Source: a virus. Taken from it: a stretch of 46,221 nt of DNA. The stretch is from positions 1-46,221 of IMG/VR virus record IMGVR_UViG_3300046167_000776; one strand, given 5' to 3'. How positions within the stretch are numbered: position 1 is the stretch's first letter; each line of letters opens with the position of its first letter. Below, one piece after another: positions 4,276 to 12,254 of the stretch. The position numbers and the translations under genes are program-made. The notes beneath the pieces were generated by a model. That model saw only the letters and a list, made by a program, of their open reading frames with translations. It was not told the DNA's origin and did no database searches.

Positions 4276-4520
4276 TACTCATATCATTCATCTGTGCCCT
4301 GAGCTACCTACTCATCCTGAGCAAGGTATTCAGCCTAACATTCGTTCTACGGACTCAAGTCCTATGGGACGTGATCTTTACCTTATGCATCCCTGCTCTG
4401 TTCTTAGGCACATTCAGCGGCCTATGCACAGCCTTTCTAGCAGGGTTCTTCTTCACCGTAATCACAGCCTTCTTGGGAGTGCTCAATCCACCCAAGAAAA
4501 AGCACATGTACAAATTATGA
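4272..4520 (+). CDS. Multi-pass membrane protein without an ATG start
   Basis: From about 4263 to TGA 4518-4520 one frame encodes an obvious membrane protein of about 82 residues: helix one (LISFICALSYLLIL), a short polar loop, then a long hydrophobic stretch (residues 35-70) that can form two helices, and a basic tail PPKKKHMYKL. No ATG, GTG or TTG begins it. ATA 4272 overlaps the previous stop (ATAA), and its own stop overlaps the next ATG (ATGA). It may use a rare start, arise by -1 frameshift from the upstream gene, or reflect a sequence error. Size and topology suit a holin-like or exclusion protein. Confidence 0.5.
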   Translation: MILISFICALSYLLILSKVFSLTFVLRTQVLWDVIFTLCIPALFLGTFSGLCTAFLAGFFFTVITAFLGVLNPPKKKHMYKL

Positions 4521-4771
4521 AGATCCTAACTACGCTACCTACATTTGACGAAGCGGGCCCTTATGCGTTTTCCCTTATTTTAGAATCAGAAGTCGCACTA
4601 CAATGTCGCCAGCTCTCATGGAATGAAGCTAATTCAAATATTCTGGAAGTATACCATCATGGAGCAGGATGGCGCCCTATAGGCCTCAACGCAATCGACC
4701 GCCTCTGCGAGCGAGGAAGCCATTGCTTCCTAGTTAATGAACACCACACAACTACAGAAAATGAAATCTAA
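4517..4771 (+). CDS. Small paralogue, P-x-x-DG-Y family
   Basis: An 84-residue protein beginning MKILTTLPTFDEAGPYAF. An upstream in-frame ATG at 4364 would read through the membrane gene in another frame; ATG 4517, overlapping that gene's stop (ATGA), is preferred. The N-terminus resembles those of the proteins at 5080 and 5540 (a T-x-x-P-x-DG-Y-V pattern followed by a tryptophan-containing strand), suggesting three diverged copies of one small fold. Function unknown. Confidence 0.6.
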   Translation: MKILTTLPTFDEAGPYAFSLILESEVALQCRQLSWNEANSNILEVYHHGAGWRPIGLNAIDRLCERGSHCFLVNEHHTTTENEI

Positions 4772-5102
4772 CACAGTCACAAAAGCCCAGTTTTCCCATG
4801 CGGTGCGGCAAGAAGCGCAATATCTTCTCAGCGAAGACGTCAAAAAGATGCCAAATAAAAAAGACTTTGAAAAAGAGTTTCGAGCCCGACTTGAGAAGTC
4901 CCTCAAATCCACTGGAGCATACGGAGAACTCCTTAAACAATTAGACAACAACATCGAAGAGTGCCTAAAACTGATTACCCACAGCATACAAGAGTGCATC
5001 ATGGAAACTGTAATCTTAGGGCATTCTCCAAGGGCATCATTGACTACACTGATCGAAGAAACCACTAAAATAATCGAAAATGATTCAACTGCAAACAACT
5101 GA
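4761..5102 (+). CDS. Helical charged hypothetical protein
   Basis: A 113-residue helical protein rich in K and E. ATG 4761 gives an 11-base overlap with the previous gene; ATG 4737 would add eight residues. A central stretch (DFEKEFRARLEKSLKS) looks like an amphipathic helix. Its end overlaps the next gene by 23 bases, so the cluster 3492-5957 is probably one polycistronic unit. No family recognised. Confidence 0.6.
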   Translation: MKSNTVTKAQFSHAVRQEAQYLLSEDVKKMPNKKDFEKEFRARLEKSLKSTGAYGELLKQLDNNIEECLKLITHSIQECIMETVILGHSPRASLTTLIEETTKIIENDSTANN

Positions 5103-5328
5103 AGCTTTTCCAGAAGAAGACGGAGACTACGTCATACTTTGGTCCTTCGTCCCCGTTACTACCAACGTCCGTAGCCTACGTTTCACTATACATGGCGGAG
5201 AGCCCGTAACCTTCTATGACCCTACCCATGGAGGGATGAGAAACTTTGAAGACTGTACCAATCTTGTCAAAAGAGCAGTAAGAGGAGATGTAGGATATAA
5301 TCATGCATATATACGATTCTACCAATGA
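5080..5328 (+). CDS. Small paralogue, EDGDYVILW type
   Basis: An 82-residue protein with PEEDGDYVILW near residues 11-21, matching PTEDGQYVMLW in the gene at 5540 and more weakly the gene at 4517. A beta-rich fold with a conserved tryptophan is likely. The start lies inside the end of the upstream gene (23-base overlap). The repeated family suggests tandem duplication and divergence of an accessory early protein. Confidence 0.6.
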   Translation: MIQLQTTEAFPEEDGDYVILWSFVPVTTNVRSLRFTIHGGEPVTFYDPTHGGMRNFEDCTNLVKRAVRGDVGYNHAYIRFYQ

Positions 5329-5331
5329 CTT

Positions 5332-5484
5332 ATGTTACGACGCGTAATAACCCGATGCGCCTTGTTCTTCGTCCCCTTGATACTTGATGCCCTGTTGCTG
5401 GGGCTAGAGAGATGGGCGCGGACCAAACGCTGGCAGAGCAATCGGCCACAGCTACAGAGAGAAGAAGAAGACCGCATCACCTGA
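5332..5484 (+). CDS. 50-residue single-pass membrane protein
   Basis: ATG 5332 starts three bases after the previous stop, and the frame ends at TGA 5482-5484. The N-terminus MLRRVITR is basic, residues 9-25 form a hydrophobic helix (CALFFVPLILDALLLGL), and the remainder is a charged tail with RWARTKRWQ and REEEDR. By the positive-inside rule both ends are strongly charged around one transmembrane helix. It could be an exclusion or lysis-related peptide; nothing specific is recognised. Confidence 0.55.
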   Translation: MLRRVITRCALFFVPLILDALLLGLERWARTKRWQSNRPQLQREEEDRIT

Positions 5485-5490
5485 ACAGTC

Positions 5491-5520
5491 GCCCGTAGAG
5501 TTGCATGAAACTTTACGGGC
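5491..5520 (+). other. 12-bp intergenic hairpin
   Basis: GCCCGTA (5491-5497) pairs with TACGGGC (5514-5520), continued by a G-T pair and AGTT/AACT, giving about 12 pairs around a GCATGA loop. No T-run follows, so it is more likely an RNA processing or stability structure than a terminator. It fills the gap between the genes ending at 5484 and starting at 5540. Confidence 0.55.
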
Positions 5521-5539
5521 GGCCTACGACTACACTACT

Positions 5540-5755
5540 ATGCAAATACTAACTGAACGACCAACCGAAGACGGACAATATGTCATGCTATGGCAAGGGG
5601 CCGGAGCGCTATGGTGCAACCAAATCAGAATAGAAAACGGCGAGATGACCAGACGAATCAGCTCGACAGCAAGCGCATTTTCCTCGGAAAACTGGGCTGT
5701 CGTCAACTTCGATACAGACAACAGAACGTTCCCAAGAACCTTCCTTAAACTATAA
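5540..5755 (+). CDS. Small paralogue, EDGQYVMLW type
   Basis: A 71-residue protein starting MQILTERPTEDGQYVMLW. An upstream TTG at 5501 in the same frame falls inside a hairpin, so ATG 5540 is used. The N-terminal 18 residues closely match the 82-residue protein at 5080. The rest diverges but keeps a similar length and beta-rich character. Function unknown. Confidence 0.6.
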   Translation: MQILTERPTEDGQYVMLWQGAGALWCNQIRIENGEMTRRISSTASAFSSENWAVVNFDTDNRTFPRTFLKL

Positions 5756-5957: not shown

Positions 5958-6019
5958 CACTCTCGATATTCGATGAACGGATATCACTCACAAAAACAAC
6001 GATAAAGTAATACATAGCT

Positions 6020-6238
6020 ATGGCTACTCAAATCAACTACGGCATGTCCTCTGTAACACCTGCACTGGACGCAAACACAACAGTCAGCGATCTCCTCGCT
6101 AACCGCAACGTACTCTCCGTACTCGGCGCTTCAACCGACGTCCGTGCGATGTCTGGCGGCGTTGAGCTCGAAGATGACGAGCTCGTCAGTGCTTACACTG
6201 TCATTACTCTTGAAAAAGAGGGTTCATCGAAGGCTTAG
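6020..6238 (+). CDS. Ubiquitin-like (beta-grasp) modifier protein
   Basis: A 72-residue protein with the ThiS/MoaD/ubiquitin-like pattern: an initial strand, then TVSDLLANRNVLSVLG (helix), strands V.AMSGGVEL, the turn LEDDELVSAY and a last strand VITLEKEG, ending GSSKA. Length and order fit the small modifiers of bacterial ubiquitin-like operons such as the PRTRC protein C type, whose C-terminus also ends in a G-x-K-G/A-like tail rather than GG. The genes that follow encode E2-, E1- and JAMM-like proteins, which strongly supports the call. It has its own downstream terminator, which would give more modifier than enzyme. The target is unknown, and whether the native C-terminus is active is not shown. 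Confidence 0.72.
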   Translation: MATQINYGMSSVTPALDANTTVSDLLANRNVLSVLGASTDVRAMSGGVELEDDELVSAYTVITLEKEGSSKA

Positions 6239-6261
6239 CTGCCCCTGAGCAACCAAACAGT

Positions 6262-6298
6262 GGCCCGTGTCTCCGAAGAGACACGGGCCTTTATCTTT
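6262..6298 (+). terminator. Strong intrinsic terminator after the ubiquitin-like gene
   Basis: GGCCCGTGTCTC (6262-6273) pairs perfectly with GAGACACGGGCC (6278-6289) around CGAA, followed by TTTATCTTT. It separates the modifier from the enzymes, so enzyme genes are expressed by read-through or from a promoter at 6299-6312. Confidence 0.92.
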
Positions 6299-6312
6299 AA
6301 CCTAGTAATACC

Positions 6313-7152
6313 ATGTCCAATTCAATAACAAATAAAACAGAGATCGTTCTAGTAGGTGACCAATTCGTCCGACGCATAACTCAAGAAGTAGGCATCGGCA
6401 CACAAGAACGCTTCATCAAGGCCCTTGTTGAGCGTCAACAAAACGAAATTCTATGGTCCAATAAACCTACGTTTAATGGACCAGACATTGACCCCACTGG
6501 AATGGTTAAAAGAATATGGCTAGGGCACTCCACGGCTGCGAACTCCCCTACCCACGTAATTACCGAGCTTAATTACTTCCCACTTTGCGGCGCCACCTTA
6601 GAGAAACCACAGGGAAATAACGGATATCGCCTCATACTTGTAGATAGACGAAAGCACCCCCACGATGAGTATAACGACTACGGATACACCGAGGAGCAAA
6701 TGGACGACTGTCTATATTTTGATGAGAAACCACTTCGCCTCACTTTCCAAGAAAACCATAATGCAAAGGTATTCTTATACTTTCCACTAACAGAACATTC
6801 AGCTAGTACCCCAAAACTCTTTATTCTACGGGACGGCCTTCCATGGATCCCATACGGACTCCCGAATATTTTCCCAGACGACGGCGCATTGTGCGCAGGA
6901 GACGACTGGGAAGAAGACACGAAGATTTATAGCTCTCCTTCCATGTCGATCAGTACCATGGACCATATCAAAAAAGCAATTGTAGCTTTCTCCTCAACCC
7001 CACCGAACAGCGACCTAAGTAACGATGAATCACACTCCGCGTGGGGCAGCTGGGACTGCAACGGGCATATCACTCCCTGTGGAATCGTTCCTGTAGGAAA
7101 TCAACATCGGGACTCTACTGTCTGCTCCTTTGTCAAACACTTCACCACTTAG
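6313..7152 (+). CDS. E2-like ubiquitin-conjugating protein (PRTRC-B/Prok-E2 type)
   Basis: A 279-residue protein. The decisive region is residues 178-197, with the pattern W-x-P-Y-x-L-P-N-I-x-x-D-G-x-x-C-x-G. A PNv..dG.iC.G signature with the catalytic cysteine is the hallmark of Prok-E2 proteins such as PRTRC system protein B, placing the active cysteine at C194. The N-terminal half has a mixed alpha/beta region and a long acidic loop (residues 115-137). Its role would be to accept the modifier from the E1 at 7600 and transfer it to a target. It is preceded by a terminator and by the leader TAGTAATACC, and followed by an unknown gene after four bases. Confidence 0.72.
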   Translation: MSNSITNKTEIVLVGDQFVRRITQEVGIGTQERFIKALVERQQNEILWSNKPTFNGPDIDPTGMVKRIWLGHSTAANSPTHVITELNYFPLCGATLEKPQGNNGYRLILVDRRKHPHDEYNDYGYTEEQMDDCLYFDEKPLRLTFQENHNAKVFLYFPLTEHSASTPKLFILRDGLPWIPYGLPNIFPDDGALCAGDDWEEDTKIYSSPSMSISTMDHIKKAIVAFSSTPPNSDLSNDESHSAWGSWDCNGHITPCGIVPVGNQHRDSTVCSFVKHFTT

Positions 7153-7156
7153 TATT

Positions 7157-7603
7157 ATGGCTATTCCATTATTCACAGAAGAAGCACGTAGGGTGTTGAA
7201 CGCAATTTTTGAAGGTCAACCAGAACCTGAGACACCTGGCCCTGATACTATTACATTAACAGCTCCGACTGCGCCACTTCCTGATCCCGAGGATACTACG
7301 AAGCATTGCCTTAATCACCTGATCGAAGAATGCTTTGTTAGAAAGACACCCTACCCTGGCCCAGGAAGCATCAACATGTTCCTTAGTTCCACCGAGAGTC
7401 CACAGAACCATGGAGCCGTCGAAGAACGGTATCCTATTCCTGAAGAGGATCTCAAAATCATTGAGAAAATCTACCATAAGAAACTACCTGACTGTGGGCG
7501 TAAACGAGGCGCTCTCCTTCGATACATTTCCTTCTTTAAAGGAGATATTACTGAACCTACCAACTTCTTCGATACACTAAAACGACAACTAGAAAGAACA
7601 TGA
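7157..7603 (+). CDS. Unknown protein inside the ubiquitin-like cassette
   Basis: ATG 7157 gives 148 residues; an upstream in-frame ATG at 7130 would overlap the E2 gene. The N-terminal third is proline-rich and probably disordered (PEPETPGPD, APTAPLPDPED). The rest is compact with two cysteines and a basic patch (KLPDCGRKRGALLRY). Its end overlaps the E1 start (ATGA at 7600). Lying between E2 and E1, it may be a substrate adaptor or E3-like factor, or the protein that becomes modified. No family is recognised. Confidence 0.6.
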   Translation: MAIPLFTEEARRVLNAIFEGQPEPETPGPDTITLTAPTAPLPDPEDTTKHCLNHLIEECFVRKTPYPGPGSINMFLSSTESPQNHGAVEERYPIPEEDLKIIEKIYHKKLPDCGRKRGALLRYISFFKGDITEPTNFFDTLKRQLERT

Positions 7604-8292
7604 AACCACTGAACATCGCTATTATCGGAGCAGGAGGCGTAGCCTCCTACATGCTCCCCGCGCTCTGCCGCACGTTTAACATCTCTGGACATATCATTGA
7701 TGCTGATGTGCTAGAGAAGCACAACCTTAACCGCCAAATCTTCAACGAACGTGACGTCGGTCGAGGTAAGGCTGAAGCACTGGTCCGTTTTACCAACGCT
7801 CCACTGGAACCTGTACGCGAATGGCTACGAGAAGAAAGTAAGAACGACAATCCTGAGTGGTTCCGTGACGTAGACTTCATCATCGCCATCGTAGACAACC
7901 ATGAGGCACGCCGTAATGCCCTTGCAGCAGCCGCACGCTTCGGATGTGGCATCTTCATCGGCGCCAACGAATACGAGACCTCACAGGTCATCTACTGGCA
8001 TCCACGGATGGGTGACACATGGAACCCGATCACCCGATATCCTACCATGGCAACAAGCATGGAGGGCAGCCCCATGGACTGCACTTCTGACGAAGCCATT
8101 GAATCATCCCCACAACTAGCCATCGCCAACCAAGTATCCGCCGCACTGGTCAACTACATGATCTGGCAATGGTACGGACCTGATGGCTTCTACAGCCTGT
8201 CCGACAACGGACGTCATTTAGAGCCACACTGGCCCATTGAGCATCAGACTACACTAGGCGCAATGGAAACAATCAAATTGGGAGACATCTAA
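7600..8292 (+). CDS. E1-like ThiF-family adenylyltransferase
   Basis: A 230-residue protein with the full ThiF/E1 nucleotide-binding signature: glycine loop GAGGVAS (residues 10-16), DADVLEKHNLNRQ (34-46) with the arginine and glutamine that contact ATP, K57 in GRGKAEA, and the acidic metal ligand D99 in AIVDNHEAR. C161 in MDCTSD is at the expected place for the thioester cysteine. It should adenylate the C-terminus of the modifier at 6020. At 230 residues it is a single minimal domain, like the PRTRC ThiF proteins. The start overlaps the previous gene by four bases. Confidence 0.85.
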   Translation: MKPLNIAIIGAGGVASYMLPALCRTFNISGHIIDADVLEKHNLNRQIFNERDVGRGKAEALVRFTNAPLEPVREWLREESKNDNPEWFRDVDFIIAIVDNHEARRNALAAAARFGCGIFIGANEYETSQVIYWHPRMGDTWNPITRYPTMATSMEGSPMDCTSDEAIESSPQLAIANQVSAALVNYMIWQWYGPDGFYSLSDNGRHLEPHWPIEHQTTLGAMETIKLGDI

Positions 8293-8293
8293 C

Positions 8294-9454
8294 ATGAACA
8301 CATACATTATCGACGACAACAAACTCTACCGCGAAGACGACAAAGGCCTCTACGTGGACTACGTCCTCTGCCAAGCAGACGAAGGGGACGCAACTCCCCG
8401 CTGGACAGGGCCGAAGATTCCCTATGAAATGTTCCGTGAAATGACGGCATGGTGCGAAGAGACCCAGCGACGCCTCAAGAGCGAAGCCATGGTCCTTCTG
8501 TTCCTTGACGAGAACAACCAATGGAAACACTGGTACTGTCCTCAAGAGACTTCAGGACTGTCAGTAGAATCTGATGACAATTCTGCTCTCTACAAAGAAG
8601 AGCGCAAGAACTACCCTGACCGTCAGCTTGGAACACTCCACCATCATTGTGGTGTTGATGCCTTCCAATCAGGCACAGACAGCTCCGATGAAGAAGATCG
8701 TGATGGATTACACTTCACTATCGGAAACCTTGACGACGATACATACTCTTTGCACGCACGCTTCTGCATCAACGGCAAGAGCCACGACTGCCCTACTGAA
8801 TCACTGGTTGAGATGCCTAAGTGGATGGAAAATGTTCCAGAGCACGCCCGGATCGACATCATGAAAGGACTGCTAAAGGCCCCTACAGAGGGGTTCAAAA
8901 AAGACCATTTCAAAGAGCTAATTGAGAAGGTAGTAGACAAGAAAGTATACTCCCCTTCAGCGATTGGTAGCTACGGTGGCTACGGTGGGCATAATGGCTA
9001 CAATAGCTACCAAGGAGGCCACAATAGCTACCAAGGAGGCCACAAAACTAGTGTAACAGACGAACAAGCCGTCTCGCGCCTTATTCAGAGCGAAAGTGAT
9101 TGGTACCCTGCGGGCGATAAGCTCGCACGCGTCTGGTTCGTCATGAACGAAGACACCGAAACAGATCTCACTGATATGATCTACGCACTGCAACAAGAAG
9201 CAGACAGTAAAGACGCTTTCTCTACCCAATGTCAGGCATTCACAGCAAAATTACGTAAAGCAATTAATTCTGCTGCATGGTTGCGTGCTGAGGATTTGAT
9301 CGGGTATCTTGAGGAAGTAAACTCAATCAAAGAAGACGATGCAATGGAAACTGCTGCCGACGAAAAAGAAGCACAATTCACTGAAGATCGTATGCTCCAG
9401 ATCGAAGAACAACGAGCTGCGTATTCTGAGAATGATAGCTACTGGAAAGCATAA
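8294..9454 (+). CDS. JAMM/MPN+ metallo-isopeptidase with Gly/Tyr-rich linker and extra C-terminal domain
   Basis: A 386-residue protein. Residues 64-129 contain a complete JAMM motif: E64 in SEAMVLLF, then H116-x-H118, seven residues, S126-x-x-D129, the zinc site of JAB1/MPN+ deubiquitinases and of PRTRC protein A. A GLHFTIGN strand follows at 138-145. Residues about 224-250 are a low-complexity linker rich in G, Y, H, N and S with a 7-residue repeat. The C-terminal 130 residues form an acidic helical domain of unknown function. It probably removes or matures the modifier. The stop overlaps the nuclease start (TAATG). Confidence 0.78.
   Translation: MNTYIIDDNKLYREDDKGLYVDYVLCQADEGDATPRWTGPKIPYEMFREMTAWCEETQRRLKSEAMVLLFLDENNQWKHWYCPQETSGLSVESDDNSALYKEERKNYPDRQLGTLHHHCGVDAFQSGTDSSDEEDRDGLHFTIGNLDDDTYSLHARFCINGKSHDCPTESLVEMPKWMENVPEHARIDIMKGLLKAPTEGFKKDHFKELIEKVVDKKVYSPSAIGSYGGYGGHNGYNSYQGGHNSYQGGHKTSVTDEQAVSRLIQSESDWYPAGDKLARVWFVMNEDTETDLTDMIYALQQEADSKDAFSTQCQAFTAKLRKAINSAAWLRAEDLIGYLEEVNSIKEDDAMETAADEKEAQFTEDRMLQIEEQRAAYSENDSYWKA
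9002..9043 (+). repeat. 21-bp perfect tandem duplication in the JAMM linker
   Basis: Two adjacent identical 21-bp units (9002-9022 and 9023-9043) encode repeats of NSYQGGH within the Gly/Tyr-rich linker. A diverged unit with GYGGHNGY precedes them. The copies are identical at synonymous positions, so the duplication is recent. Confidence 0.9.
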
Positions 9455-10169: not shown

Positions 10170-10385
10170 ATGCTATACAGAAACCGTAAAGAGCTTAAAA
10201 AGGTACCTTTCCATAAGCGATGTGCTTTAATGGAGATGCACAGAAGTGCTGATCGCGACCCTGACGTCATTGCCTACGAGAAAGAAGTCAGACGACAAAG
10301 GGACGTGGCGAACAAGACCAGCCATAAACGACACCAACGAAAAAAAGCAACTGTGGCCATTCTCAAAATGAGAAATGCACTATGA
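10170..10385 (+). CDS. Small basic protein before the DNA polymerase
   Basis: ATG 10170 gives 71 residues, strongly basic (KTSHKRHQRKKATV). A GTG at 10140 in the same frame lies within the terminator stem and is less likely. The stop overlaps the polymerase ATG (ATGA at 10382), so the two are translationally coupled. Basic composition suggests nucleic-acid binding; no family recognised. Confidence 0.55.
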   Translation: MLYRNRKELKKVPFHKRCALMEMHRSADRDPDVIAYEKEVRRQRDVANKTSHKRHQRKKATVAILKMRNAL

Positions 10386-12254
10386 GATCCCTACAAATCC
10401 CAATGTTTGAGCCAGAATCTCTCTGGCGACCGCCCACGTCCTTCCCAACCATGGGGAAGGTCATCGCAATCGACCTTGAGACACGGGACCCCCGTATCAA
10501 GGACCTTGGTCCAGGGTGGAAACGCGAAGGTGATGGAGAAGTCATCGGAATTGCCATAGCAGATGAACACCAAACAATTTATCCTCCCATTCGCTCACCG
10601 ATCAGGCGACAATCTCGCACAAGAACTGGTCCTGCGATACACCAAGCGTTGTATCGAGGGAGCTGAAGAGGTCATCATGGCAAATGCGCAGTATGATCTT
10701 GGGTGGCTACGTATTCTTGGACTCCGCGTCCCTTGCGTGGTCAGAGATATACAAGTGGCAGAAGCTCTCATTAACGAGGAGCGGAACTCATATTCCCTCG
10801 ACAATCTGGCGTTCGACTACACTGGAGAGCGCAAAGACGAGCGACACCTTAGAGCGGTTTCTCAGGCTTACGCAGATGCCAATCCAGGCTTCTGCCCTAA
10901 AGGAGACATGTGGCAGCTCGCCGCCCGACACGTTGGGCGCTACGCAGAAGCTGACGCTCGTCTTACGTGGGACGTCTATCAGTTGCAGTTGCCTGAACTG
11001 TTTGCTCAGGGTCTCTACAAAGTGTTCGAGCTCGAATGCCAAGTAACCAAGGTCCTCGTAGAGATGTCCCTAAAGGGCGTCCCAGTGGACCTGTCTCGCG
11101 CCGAGCGTCTAAGCGATGCGATGCGTAAGGAAGAGGCCACAATTCAATCACGCCATAAAGGCATAAACTTTCAAGCCTCGGAGTCTGTAGGAGAGTATCT
11201 CATAAAACAGGGAATCACTGTCCCAAAGACTGCGAAAGGTAACATATCAATCAAGAACAACTGGCTCGAAGCCCATGACAACCCACTCGTACAGGAAATA
11301 GCAAATGCACGACAAATCAGAAAAATCAGATCCGACTACATCGAAGGAACCATTCTTGGTAGCCATTGCTACAAAGGACGGATTCACGCAGGTTTCCGAC
11401 AGGTCACGTCAGAGGATGGCGGAACGCGCTCGGGTCGCCTCTCATCAGAAAGCCCGAACCTTCAGCAAGTTCCGAAGCGTTCTAAGTGGGGTAAGGAAGT
11501 TCGTAACCTCTATATTCCAGAAGAGGGCACGCAGTGGTGCAGCGCCGACTACTCAGGACAGGAAGTCGTGTGGCAGGTTCACTACGCCATACTTACCAGA
11601 CTGCCTGGAGCCGTCGAAGCAGGAGCTGCAATATCTGCTGGGCACAAGCTCTACACTTTCCTTGAGCGAGAAACAGGTCTTAGCTACAATATATGCAAAG
11701 CCATCGCCCTCGGCCTCGCCTACGGAATGTCGGTTGGCAAGTTGGCGCAAACGATGGGAGTTGGTGAGGCTGAAGGTCAACGAACCTTCGACACCTTCAA
11801 TGACAAAGTCCCCTTCCTCAAAATGCTCTTCGACAACTGCAAAGCATCAGCCACCCGAAAAGGATTCATCAAAACTCATCTCGGACGAAGAAGTCACTTT
11901 GATCAATGGTCCGCTGGATACATCGACGGGCAGCACTCGCCAGCTTATCCCATCTCCAAGGCAAAACAAGTCTACGAAGGACAACGACTAAGCCGCGCCT
12001 ACACCCACAAAGCCCTCAACCGAGTGGCCCAAGGCTCCAGTGGCGACCAGATGAAGATAGCGTTAGTTAATCTTTTTGAAGCAGGACTGGACGTTAGACT
12101 TTCTGTTCACGATGAAGCCAATCTATTCATTCAGGACAAGAAAGAGGCTGTAATGGCTAAGGAGATCATGGAAGAAGCTGTAACAATATCAATACCGACA
12201 AGAGCCGAAGTTGAGGTAGGTACCTCATGGGGCGAAATGGACTACACTGTTTAA
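10382..12254 (+). CDS. Family A DNA polymerase (3'-5' exo + pol), split by a +1 frameshift
   Basis: Two frames together make a T7/Pol I-type replicative polymerase of about 622 residues. The first frame (from ATG 10382, overlapping the previous stop) holds exonuclease motif I, IAIDLETRD. The second, open to 12254, holds exo II (NAQYDLGW), exo III (YAEADARLTW), pol motif A (DYSGQE), motif B (KAIALGLAYG) and motif C (SVHDEAN). The frames join near 10583-10590, TAT CCT CCC ATT, where skipping one C gives an uninterrupted Y-P-P-F-A-H. Either a programmed +1 shift, a real mutation or an overcalled C explains it. In motif B the residue equivalent to E. coli F762/T7 Y526 is leucine (codon 11709-11711). 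There is no 5'-3' exonuclease domain. Confidence 0.9.

Follow-up and report, generated by a model that had tools for sequence, protein, structure and literature searches.

What would a phage do with its own ubiquitin-like tag, the enzymes to attach it and a peptidase to take it off again? The question is raised by the IMG/VR virus record IMGVR_UViG_3300046167_000776, analysed over its full 46,221 bp and here called the window, in which five plus-strand open reading frames (ORFs) at positions 6020-9454 encode, in order, a ubiquitin-like modifier (Ubl), an E2-like protein, a 148-residue protein, an E1-like protein and a JAMM peptidase (Ubl-E2-x-E1-JAMM, about 3.4 kb). An earlier note on this DNA had described them as a phage-borne conjugation and deconjugation cassette, and we find all five ORFs, from the modifier through the Prok-E2 protein with C194, the protein at 7157 and the ThiF protein to the JAMM peptidase, with every motif it named at its coordinates. 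The description is well supported by active sites, homology, a model of the Ubl fold and the phage context. We put the probability that the window encodes a reversible ubiquitin-like protein modification system at about 0.8, and the chemistry of conjugation and deconjugation is itself strongly predicted from sequence.

The E1 is the sole protein of the cassette with a Pfam match (PF00899, ThiF, E = 4.8e-15). It consists of a single 230-residue ThiF domain with the motifs GAGGVAS and NLNRQ and the residues R45, K57, D99 and C161; its PDB matches include the NEDD8 E1 and Cap2, and G10, G12-G13, R45, Q46, K57, D99 and C161 are invariant in the clade of phage relatives described below. The JAMM protein contains HHHCGVDAFQSGTD (H116-x-H118-x7-S126-x2-D129) and an upstream E64, and these five residues are likewise invariant in the branch. 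So are R36-W37 ahead of the core, where the JAMMs of class 6d plasmid operons (see below) have a JAB-N domain with a conserved Arg and Trp, but this region gave no DUF2016 match; a Gly/Tyr/His-rich linker and a C-terminal extension complete the protein. Both enzymes lead towards the PRTRC operons of plasmids: the E1 matches NCBIfam PRTRC_ThiF at 4.4e-15 (score 55.7 against a curated cut-off of 144.75), and the JAMM matches PRTRC_A at 1.6e-4 (21.3 against 101.8) and plasmid JAMMs by hhalign at 3.4e-6. PRTRC B and C found no match among the window proteins.

Profiles built from other phages, with the window and its sister phage L002 left out to avoid circularity, recovered the window's E1 (E = 7e-48), JAMM (2e-33), Ubl (1.4e-10) and E2 (7e-5). 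Run against 2000 shuffles and every other window ORF, the same profiles gave best E-values of 0.12 to 1.7 for E1, E2 and JAMM and 0.006 for Ubl. From the Pfam and NCBIfam matches, and from the independent-profile matches, which exceed these controls, we conclude that the ORFs and motifs are not products of chance. Scans of the window proteins with PHROGs and PADLOC returned just weak or generic E1-domain matches, and direct PDB sequence searches with the E2, Ubl and JAMM gave no meaningful match. The earlier note had proposed a profile search of all five proteins; ThiF, PRTRC_ThiF and PRTRC_A emerged from it, while the PRTRC B and C profiles, the Bil profiles beyond the generic E1 domain, and the 148-residue protein stayed unmatched.

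The cassette is also maintained. L002, a 43-kb phage with terminase and connector genes, is the sole close relative found in IMG/VR (terminase 88% identical), and its proteins are identical to those of the window at 81% (Ubl), 60% (E2), 57% (148-residue protein), 89% (E1) and 77% (JAMM) of positions. Loss of genes or catalytic residues in close relatives would have spoken against the cassette; L002 retains all five genes and every catalytic residue, with additional sequence between E1 and JAMM. The ratios of nonsynonymous to synonymous substitution (dN/dS) between the two phages are 0.34 for Ubl, 0.11 for E2, 0.13 for E1 and 0.10 for JAMM, read where measurable; synonymous change approaches saturation in E2 and has reached it in the 148-residue gene. 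The cassette genes are under purifying selection (measurable dN/dS 0.10-0.34).

The E2-like protein has no Pfam match of its own, and its assignment to a Prok-E2_D-like fold is a prediction from motif and profiles. Its motif GLPNIFPDDGALCAGD places the putative active Cys, C194, at window positions 6892-6894, and N185, D190, G191, C194 and G196 are invariant in the branch alignment. The E2 of a sister phage, L022, reaches 25.4 bits against PF14460 (Prok-E2_D; cut-off 25). When a profile of the clade's E2s is aligned with plasmid E2s, the match falls precisely on the Cys motif (E = 2.6e-5). Through L022 and these profiles, the Cys is seen in the PN-x-x-G-x-x-C-x-G context of the Prok-E2_D family. 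Downstream of it the clade has an invariant D234-L235 and no conserved His, as in the Bacillus plasmid E2, and in the window protein neither of the positions +8 and +13 from C194 is a His.

For the modifier, the earlier note's beta-grasp assignment agrees with structure prediction. The best of five AlphaFold models adopts this fold with a predicted local distance difference test score (pLDDT) of 76 (42-52 for the remaining four), and a Foldseek search with it returns ubiquitin as the top PDB match (E = 6.5e-4, template modelling score 0.67). The protein ends ...EKEGSSKA at its stop codon, and S70, K71 and A72 are among the residues invariant in the branch alignment. Each of the branch's 14 Ubl units has a KA end, SKA in 13 and EKA in one, whereas the PRTRC Ubls and most other viral Ubls that we examined end in (T/A/N/R)KG, the PRTRC ones in Thr-Lys-Gly. 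Four branch members (L046, L047, L049 and L050) encode tandem di-Ubls, two units per ORF, with both units KA-ended in the latter three; unit junctions include NSKA/ADEV, SSKA/AARV and MEKA/SDEL, and ORFs end SKA/V or SKA/LA. Since these precursors carry KA at their unit ends, Ala is the probable last residue of the mature tag. On the simplest reading the JAMM would expose this Ala wherever a tail exists, at a cut position that we infer. Such an end would be chemically acceptable, because the cGAS proteins of type II CBASS (a cyclic-oligonucleotide-based antiphage signalling system) have a C-terminal Gly or Ala, and a bacterial E1-E2 can conjugate one that ends in Ala (PMC10097602). Maturation at Gly68 (EKEG/SSKA) was considered and rejected, as Gly68 varies in sister phages and the last K-A is conserved. 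Some KG-ended viral Ubls are tailed or in tandem as well: two viral contigs of the TKG type, 117 and 43 kb long, encode GTKG-ended tandem Ubls in one ORF (L028 5324-5746 and L035 5205-5630, ...GTKG-AG...GTKG), and these are poly-Ubl precursors of a PRTRC-like type made by viruses.

A single-domain ThiF protein would also suit a sulfur-carrier or cofactor system, in which a ThiS/MoaD-like Ubl is thiocarboxylated by the ThiF protein and the JAMM serves as its processing peptidase; sets of JAMM, ThiF and ThiS-like genes do exist in sulfur pathways (PMC1779556). Here, however, an E2-like protein with a conserved Cys accompanies the cassette in every relative, the relatives are PRTRC-like operons, and no rhodanese, thiamine or molybdopterin genes lie beside it. 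Sulfur carriers end in Gly, whereas the window Ubl ends in Ala. We regard this explanation as improbable.

To place the cassette among its relatives, plasmids were searched by tblastn and IMG/VR was scanned with JAMM and E1 profiles. The plasmid search returned PRTRC operons and JAMM/E1 sets on a 168-kb Subdoligranulum replicon and on Bacillus velezensis pAD3, with E2s and JAMMs that Pfam recognises as Prok-E2_D and Prok-JAB. The JAMM scan yielded 26 further IMG/VR contigs, each with Prok-E2_D-like, JAMM and ThiF genes together, and the E1 scan additional ones. Counted by locus identifier the further virus contigs number 36, an upper figure, and 32 are distinct, since some are near-duplicates and several were found by both scans. 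E1, E2 and JAMM occur together in every one examined, the L050 contig stopping before its JAMM. In an E1 tree computed without the near-duplicates L021 and L050, the window, L002, L020/L021, L022, L023, L024, L046, L047/L050 and L049 form one group (bootstrap 99, approximate likelihood ratio test 94) that is entirely viral, shares the order Ubl-E2-x-E1-JAMM and leaves the PRTRC and other viral sets outside, interleaved. Run over 84,980 genomes of bacteria and archaea, and confined to its peptide patterns, the same scan for E1 found no member of this branch, and 50,697 GenBank phage records yielded neither an E1 nor a JAMM of this type for the window proteins. A single unverified phage scaffold from faeces, MT835919, has E1, E2 and JAMM proteins resembling the TKG type. 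E1 matches from Sphingobacterium (L057-L059) were discarded; they group with MoeB-type proteins, with no E2 or JAMM nearby.

Several sister phages hold a conserved family between E1 and JAMM (L020 6561-7700, L023 6534-7705, L046 8708-9256, L047 9914-10480), duplicated in some and not found in the window. Near its cassette, a 188-kb viral contig (L027) also encodes a chaperonin of the Cpn60 type and a reverse-transcriptase domain (697-2385 and 10259-11149). Two large Bacillota replicons filed as plasmids, L005 (OY725881) and L006 (NZ_AP024502), carry JAMM, E1 and E2 sets, L006 also a DNA polymerase III alpha, and could be phage-plasmids.

The closest known operons are on PRTRC plasmids, and one could ask whether the window is a PRTRC plasmid operon in a misclassified record, or a functionless passenger in a phage. 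In 16 of the first 27 records no terminase was found, and some of the IMG/VR records with the cassette, among them TKG-type contigs, may be plasmid-like. Against this, the window encodes terminase, head-tail connector, capsid and tail proteins on its minus strand and is a genuine phage, its terminase being closest to that of an unclassified spring-water phage (46%), followed by Stenotrophomonas and Acetobacter phages. L002 has its own terminase and connector, and four further members of the branch encode a terminase. Terminases are present in 11 of the 27 records and in L046, L047 and L050, so several unrelated phages carry such cassettes. Together with the separate virus-only branch and the purifying selection, these observations largely refute the plasmid or passenger explanation, to which we give only a very small chance.

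The plus strand encodes DNA polymerase A, an AEP-type primase, UvrD-type and SNF2-type helicases and proteins like Pam3 gp33 and gp34, which bears out the earlier note's view of a phage genome with replication genes next to the cassette. The cassette (Table 1) adjoins these genes, with the virion genes on the complementary strand. Its four enzyme-side genes (6313-9454) overlap or almost abut, and a hairpin with a GC-rich stem and T-rich tail separates them from the Ubl gene; in L002 the equivalent hairpin has changed stem bases and a z score of -5.3. The polymerase A gene is split (10382-10666 and 10563-12254), with a change of frame near 10570 relative to the intact 623-residue ORF of L002 (11266-13137); a sequencing error, a real frameshift and a programmed event are all candidates. 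Upstream, at 4364-5755, several small ORFs with a start like (F/T)P-x-EDG-x-YV-x-LW appear by eye to be paralogues. A promoter-like repeat at about 5967-5983 was set aside, as it occurs once in the window.

Table 1. Features of the cassette, with positions in the window.
Feature	Position	Strand	Evidence
Ubl, ubiquitin-like modifier, 72 residues	6020..6238	+	AlphaFold/Foldseek, sister-phage profile, SKA tail
Terminator-like hairpin at the boundary of Ubl gene and enzyme genes	6262..6289	+	12-bp stem, z score -5.5; equivalent in L002
E2-like (Prok-E2_D-like) conjugating enzyme, 279 residues, predicted active Cys194	6313..7152	+	Conserved motif, profiles
148-residue protein in the E2-E1 slot	7157..7603	+	57% identity to L002 counterpart; no family match
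E1-like ThiF adenylyltransferase, predicted active Cys161	7600..8292	+	Pfam ThiF, invariant residues
JAMM/JAB metallopeptidase	8294..9454	+	PRTRC_A, hhalign, invariant catalytic residues

The 148-residue protein, which the earlier note had offered as an adaptor or substrate, gains no support for either label. It has no match in Pfam, PHROGs, NCBIfam or PADLOC and no similarity that we found to sister-phage proteins; a small protein fills this slot in nearly all relatives of the branch, with sequences not recognisably alike. A resemblance by eye ('PD...Y') to helical proteins that precede the JAMM in sister phages was rejected as homology (E = 22).

We envision a scenario in which the E1 adenylates the C-terminal Ala of the Ubl with ATP and holds the modifier as a thioester on Cys161, from which it would pass to Cys194 of the E2-like protein, which would link it to target-protein amino groups. 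The JAMM would cleave the isopeptide bond. In those relatives that have tandem or tailed precursors it would also free the mature ...SKA end, whereas the window Ubl is encoded ready-made (...SSKA-stop). The hairpin behind the Ubl gene would yield more tag than enzyme. The cassette sits among the replication genes and runs opposite to the virion genes, so the system probably does its work before virion assembly, either on proteins of the host or on replication proteins of the phage itself. Thioester relay, Ala conjugation and timing are steps that we infer. Clamp-like (dnaN-like) genes near the cassettes of L023 (10258-11364) and L024 (11092-12165), and dnaN near the plasmid operons L007, L014, L017 and L018, give a hint of a replisome target, and only a hint, because the window has no clamp gene; as a conserved neighbour or target in general the sliding clamp was rejected, since most viral contigs lack it too.

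We give a role in host takeover or replication about even odds, ahead of two readings in terms of defence. In one, the phage would tag virion proteins of superinfecting phages as Bil does: Bil and CBASS turn the same activities on phages (PMC11354881, PMC10097602), and the cassette is mobile, with a patchy occurrence in phages and plasmids unrelated to one another. Yet it has no Bil or PADLOC match past the generic E1 domain, lies among replication genes with no visible accessory or defence island, and is kept in the sole close relative; we consider this role unlikely. In the other, which we hold to be somewhat less likely still, the JAMM would strip Ubl or cGAS tags applied by the host through Bil or CBASS, with the other genes as assistants or decoys. 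The JAMM active site is intact and such tags are indeed turned on phages by their hosts (PMC10097602), but the E1 and E2 active sites are equally conserved and under purifying selection, while stripping needs neither, and opposition by the JAMM alone leaves the retention of E1, E2 and Ubl unexplained.

Several points weigh against a conjugation system. The E2 is linked to Prok-E2_D over a short motif region and by way of sister phages, and its AlphaFold model, made from two sequences, reached a pLDDT of 32 and was set aside as unreliable; of the earlier note's Prok-E2 with C194, the motif, conservation and profile link stand, and the model gave no usable fold. The Ubl has no terminal Gly of the usual kind, and its comparison with the PRTRC_C profile was not significant, homology to PRTRC_C being argued from fold, gene position and tail. 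No E3 ligase or substrate was identified, and expression level and timing are read from gene layout.

Ubiquitin-like conjugation in bacteria is known mainly as antiphage defence. Here phages own the whole pathway, including the tag and its remover, in a branch that our searches of plasmid and genome collections did not turn up. If active, these cassettes would be a mirror image of Bil and CBASS and compact systems, about 3.4 kb long, for finding out how prokaryotic Ubl tagging affects the proteins that it marks; the Ala-ended, KA-tailed tag and the tandem precursors yield definite biochemical predictions. We found no paper on such phage cassettes in the open-access literature, and because subscription papers and most preprints lay outside that search, priority is not established.

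Among known systems, the tail proteins TAPI and TAPK of phages lambda and T1 likewise pair a phage-encoded ubiquitin-like domain with a JAB peptidase, but they lie among tail genes and come without E1 or E2, whereas the window cassette is among replication genes. Type II CBASS (Cap2/Cap3) shares the E1/E2 chemistry, the JAMM isopeptidase and the acceptance of a Gly or Ala end on the conjugated protein; its E2 and E1 are fused and the protein that they conjugate is a cGAS-like enzyme in place of a ubiquitin fold, whereas the window has separate E1 and E2 genes and no nucleotidyltransferase. The Bil systems (BilABCD), to which the earlier note had likened the cassette, have the same four activities, and tandem Ubls occur in some relatives of the cassette. 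However, Bil is defined by an E1 with inactive and active adenylation domains and an E2 with a CEHH motif (PMC11354881). A PADLOC scan of the window proteins gave no Bil match beyond the generic E1 domain. With a single-domain E1 of 230 residues, an E2 without Cys-Glu-His-His, an Ala-ended Ubl without the terminal Gly and a phage location, the cassette, judged by its sequence features, is not Bil.

The note's other comparison, with PRTRC, was the right lead, as the PRTRC_ThiF and PRTRC_A matches, the hhalign alignment to plasmid JAMMs and the clade E2 profile indicate. Operons of JAMM, E1 and E2 were predicted by Iyer, Burroughs and Aravind in 2006 to be true modification systems (class 6d; PMC1779556). 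The window has their adjacent, separate genes for Ubl, E2-like (Prok-E2_D), E1 (ThiF) and JAMM proteins, alignable active sites, the JAMM signature HxH...AF[FQ]SxxD and a Ubl tail of the form -S/T-K-A/G. It differs in gene order (Ubl-F-E2-JAMM-E1 in class 6d) and in location: PRTRC operons are on plasmids, and in this phage no ParB, protein E or protein F was seen beside the cassette. Class 6d includes a largely alpha-helical partner protein; in the window and most relatives examined, a small protein for which no homology was found sits between E2 and E1. Because the highly conserved Ubl C-terminal Gly is replaced by Ala, the clade lacks the His that is absolutely conserved after the E2 Cys in class 6d, and the proteins fall far below the curated NCBIfam cut-offs for PRTRC A, B, C and ThiF, we place the cassette as a virus-only variant of the PRTRC/class 6d kind. 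We lean slightly towards a phage-confined Ubl lineage that evolved separately from Bil and PRTRC, with modifiers joined through Ala and made in part as poly-Ubl precursors, and that would reprogram host or phage proteins during infection.

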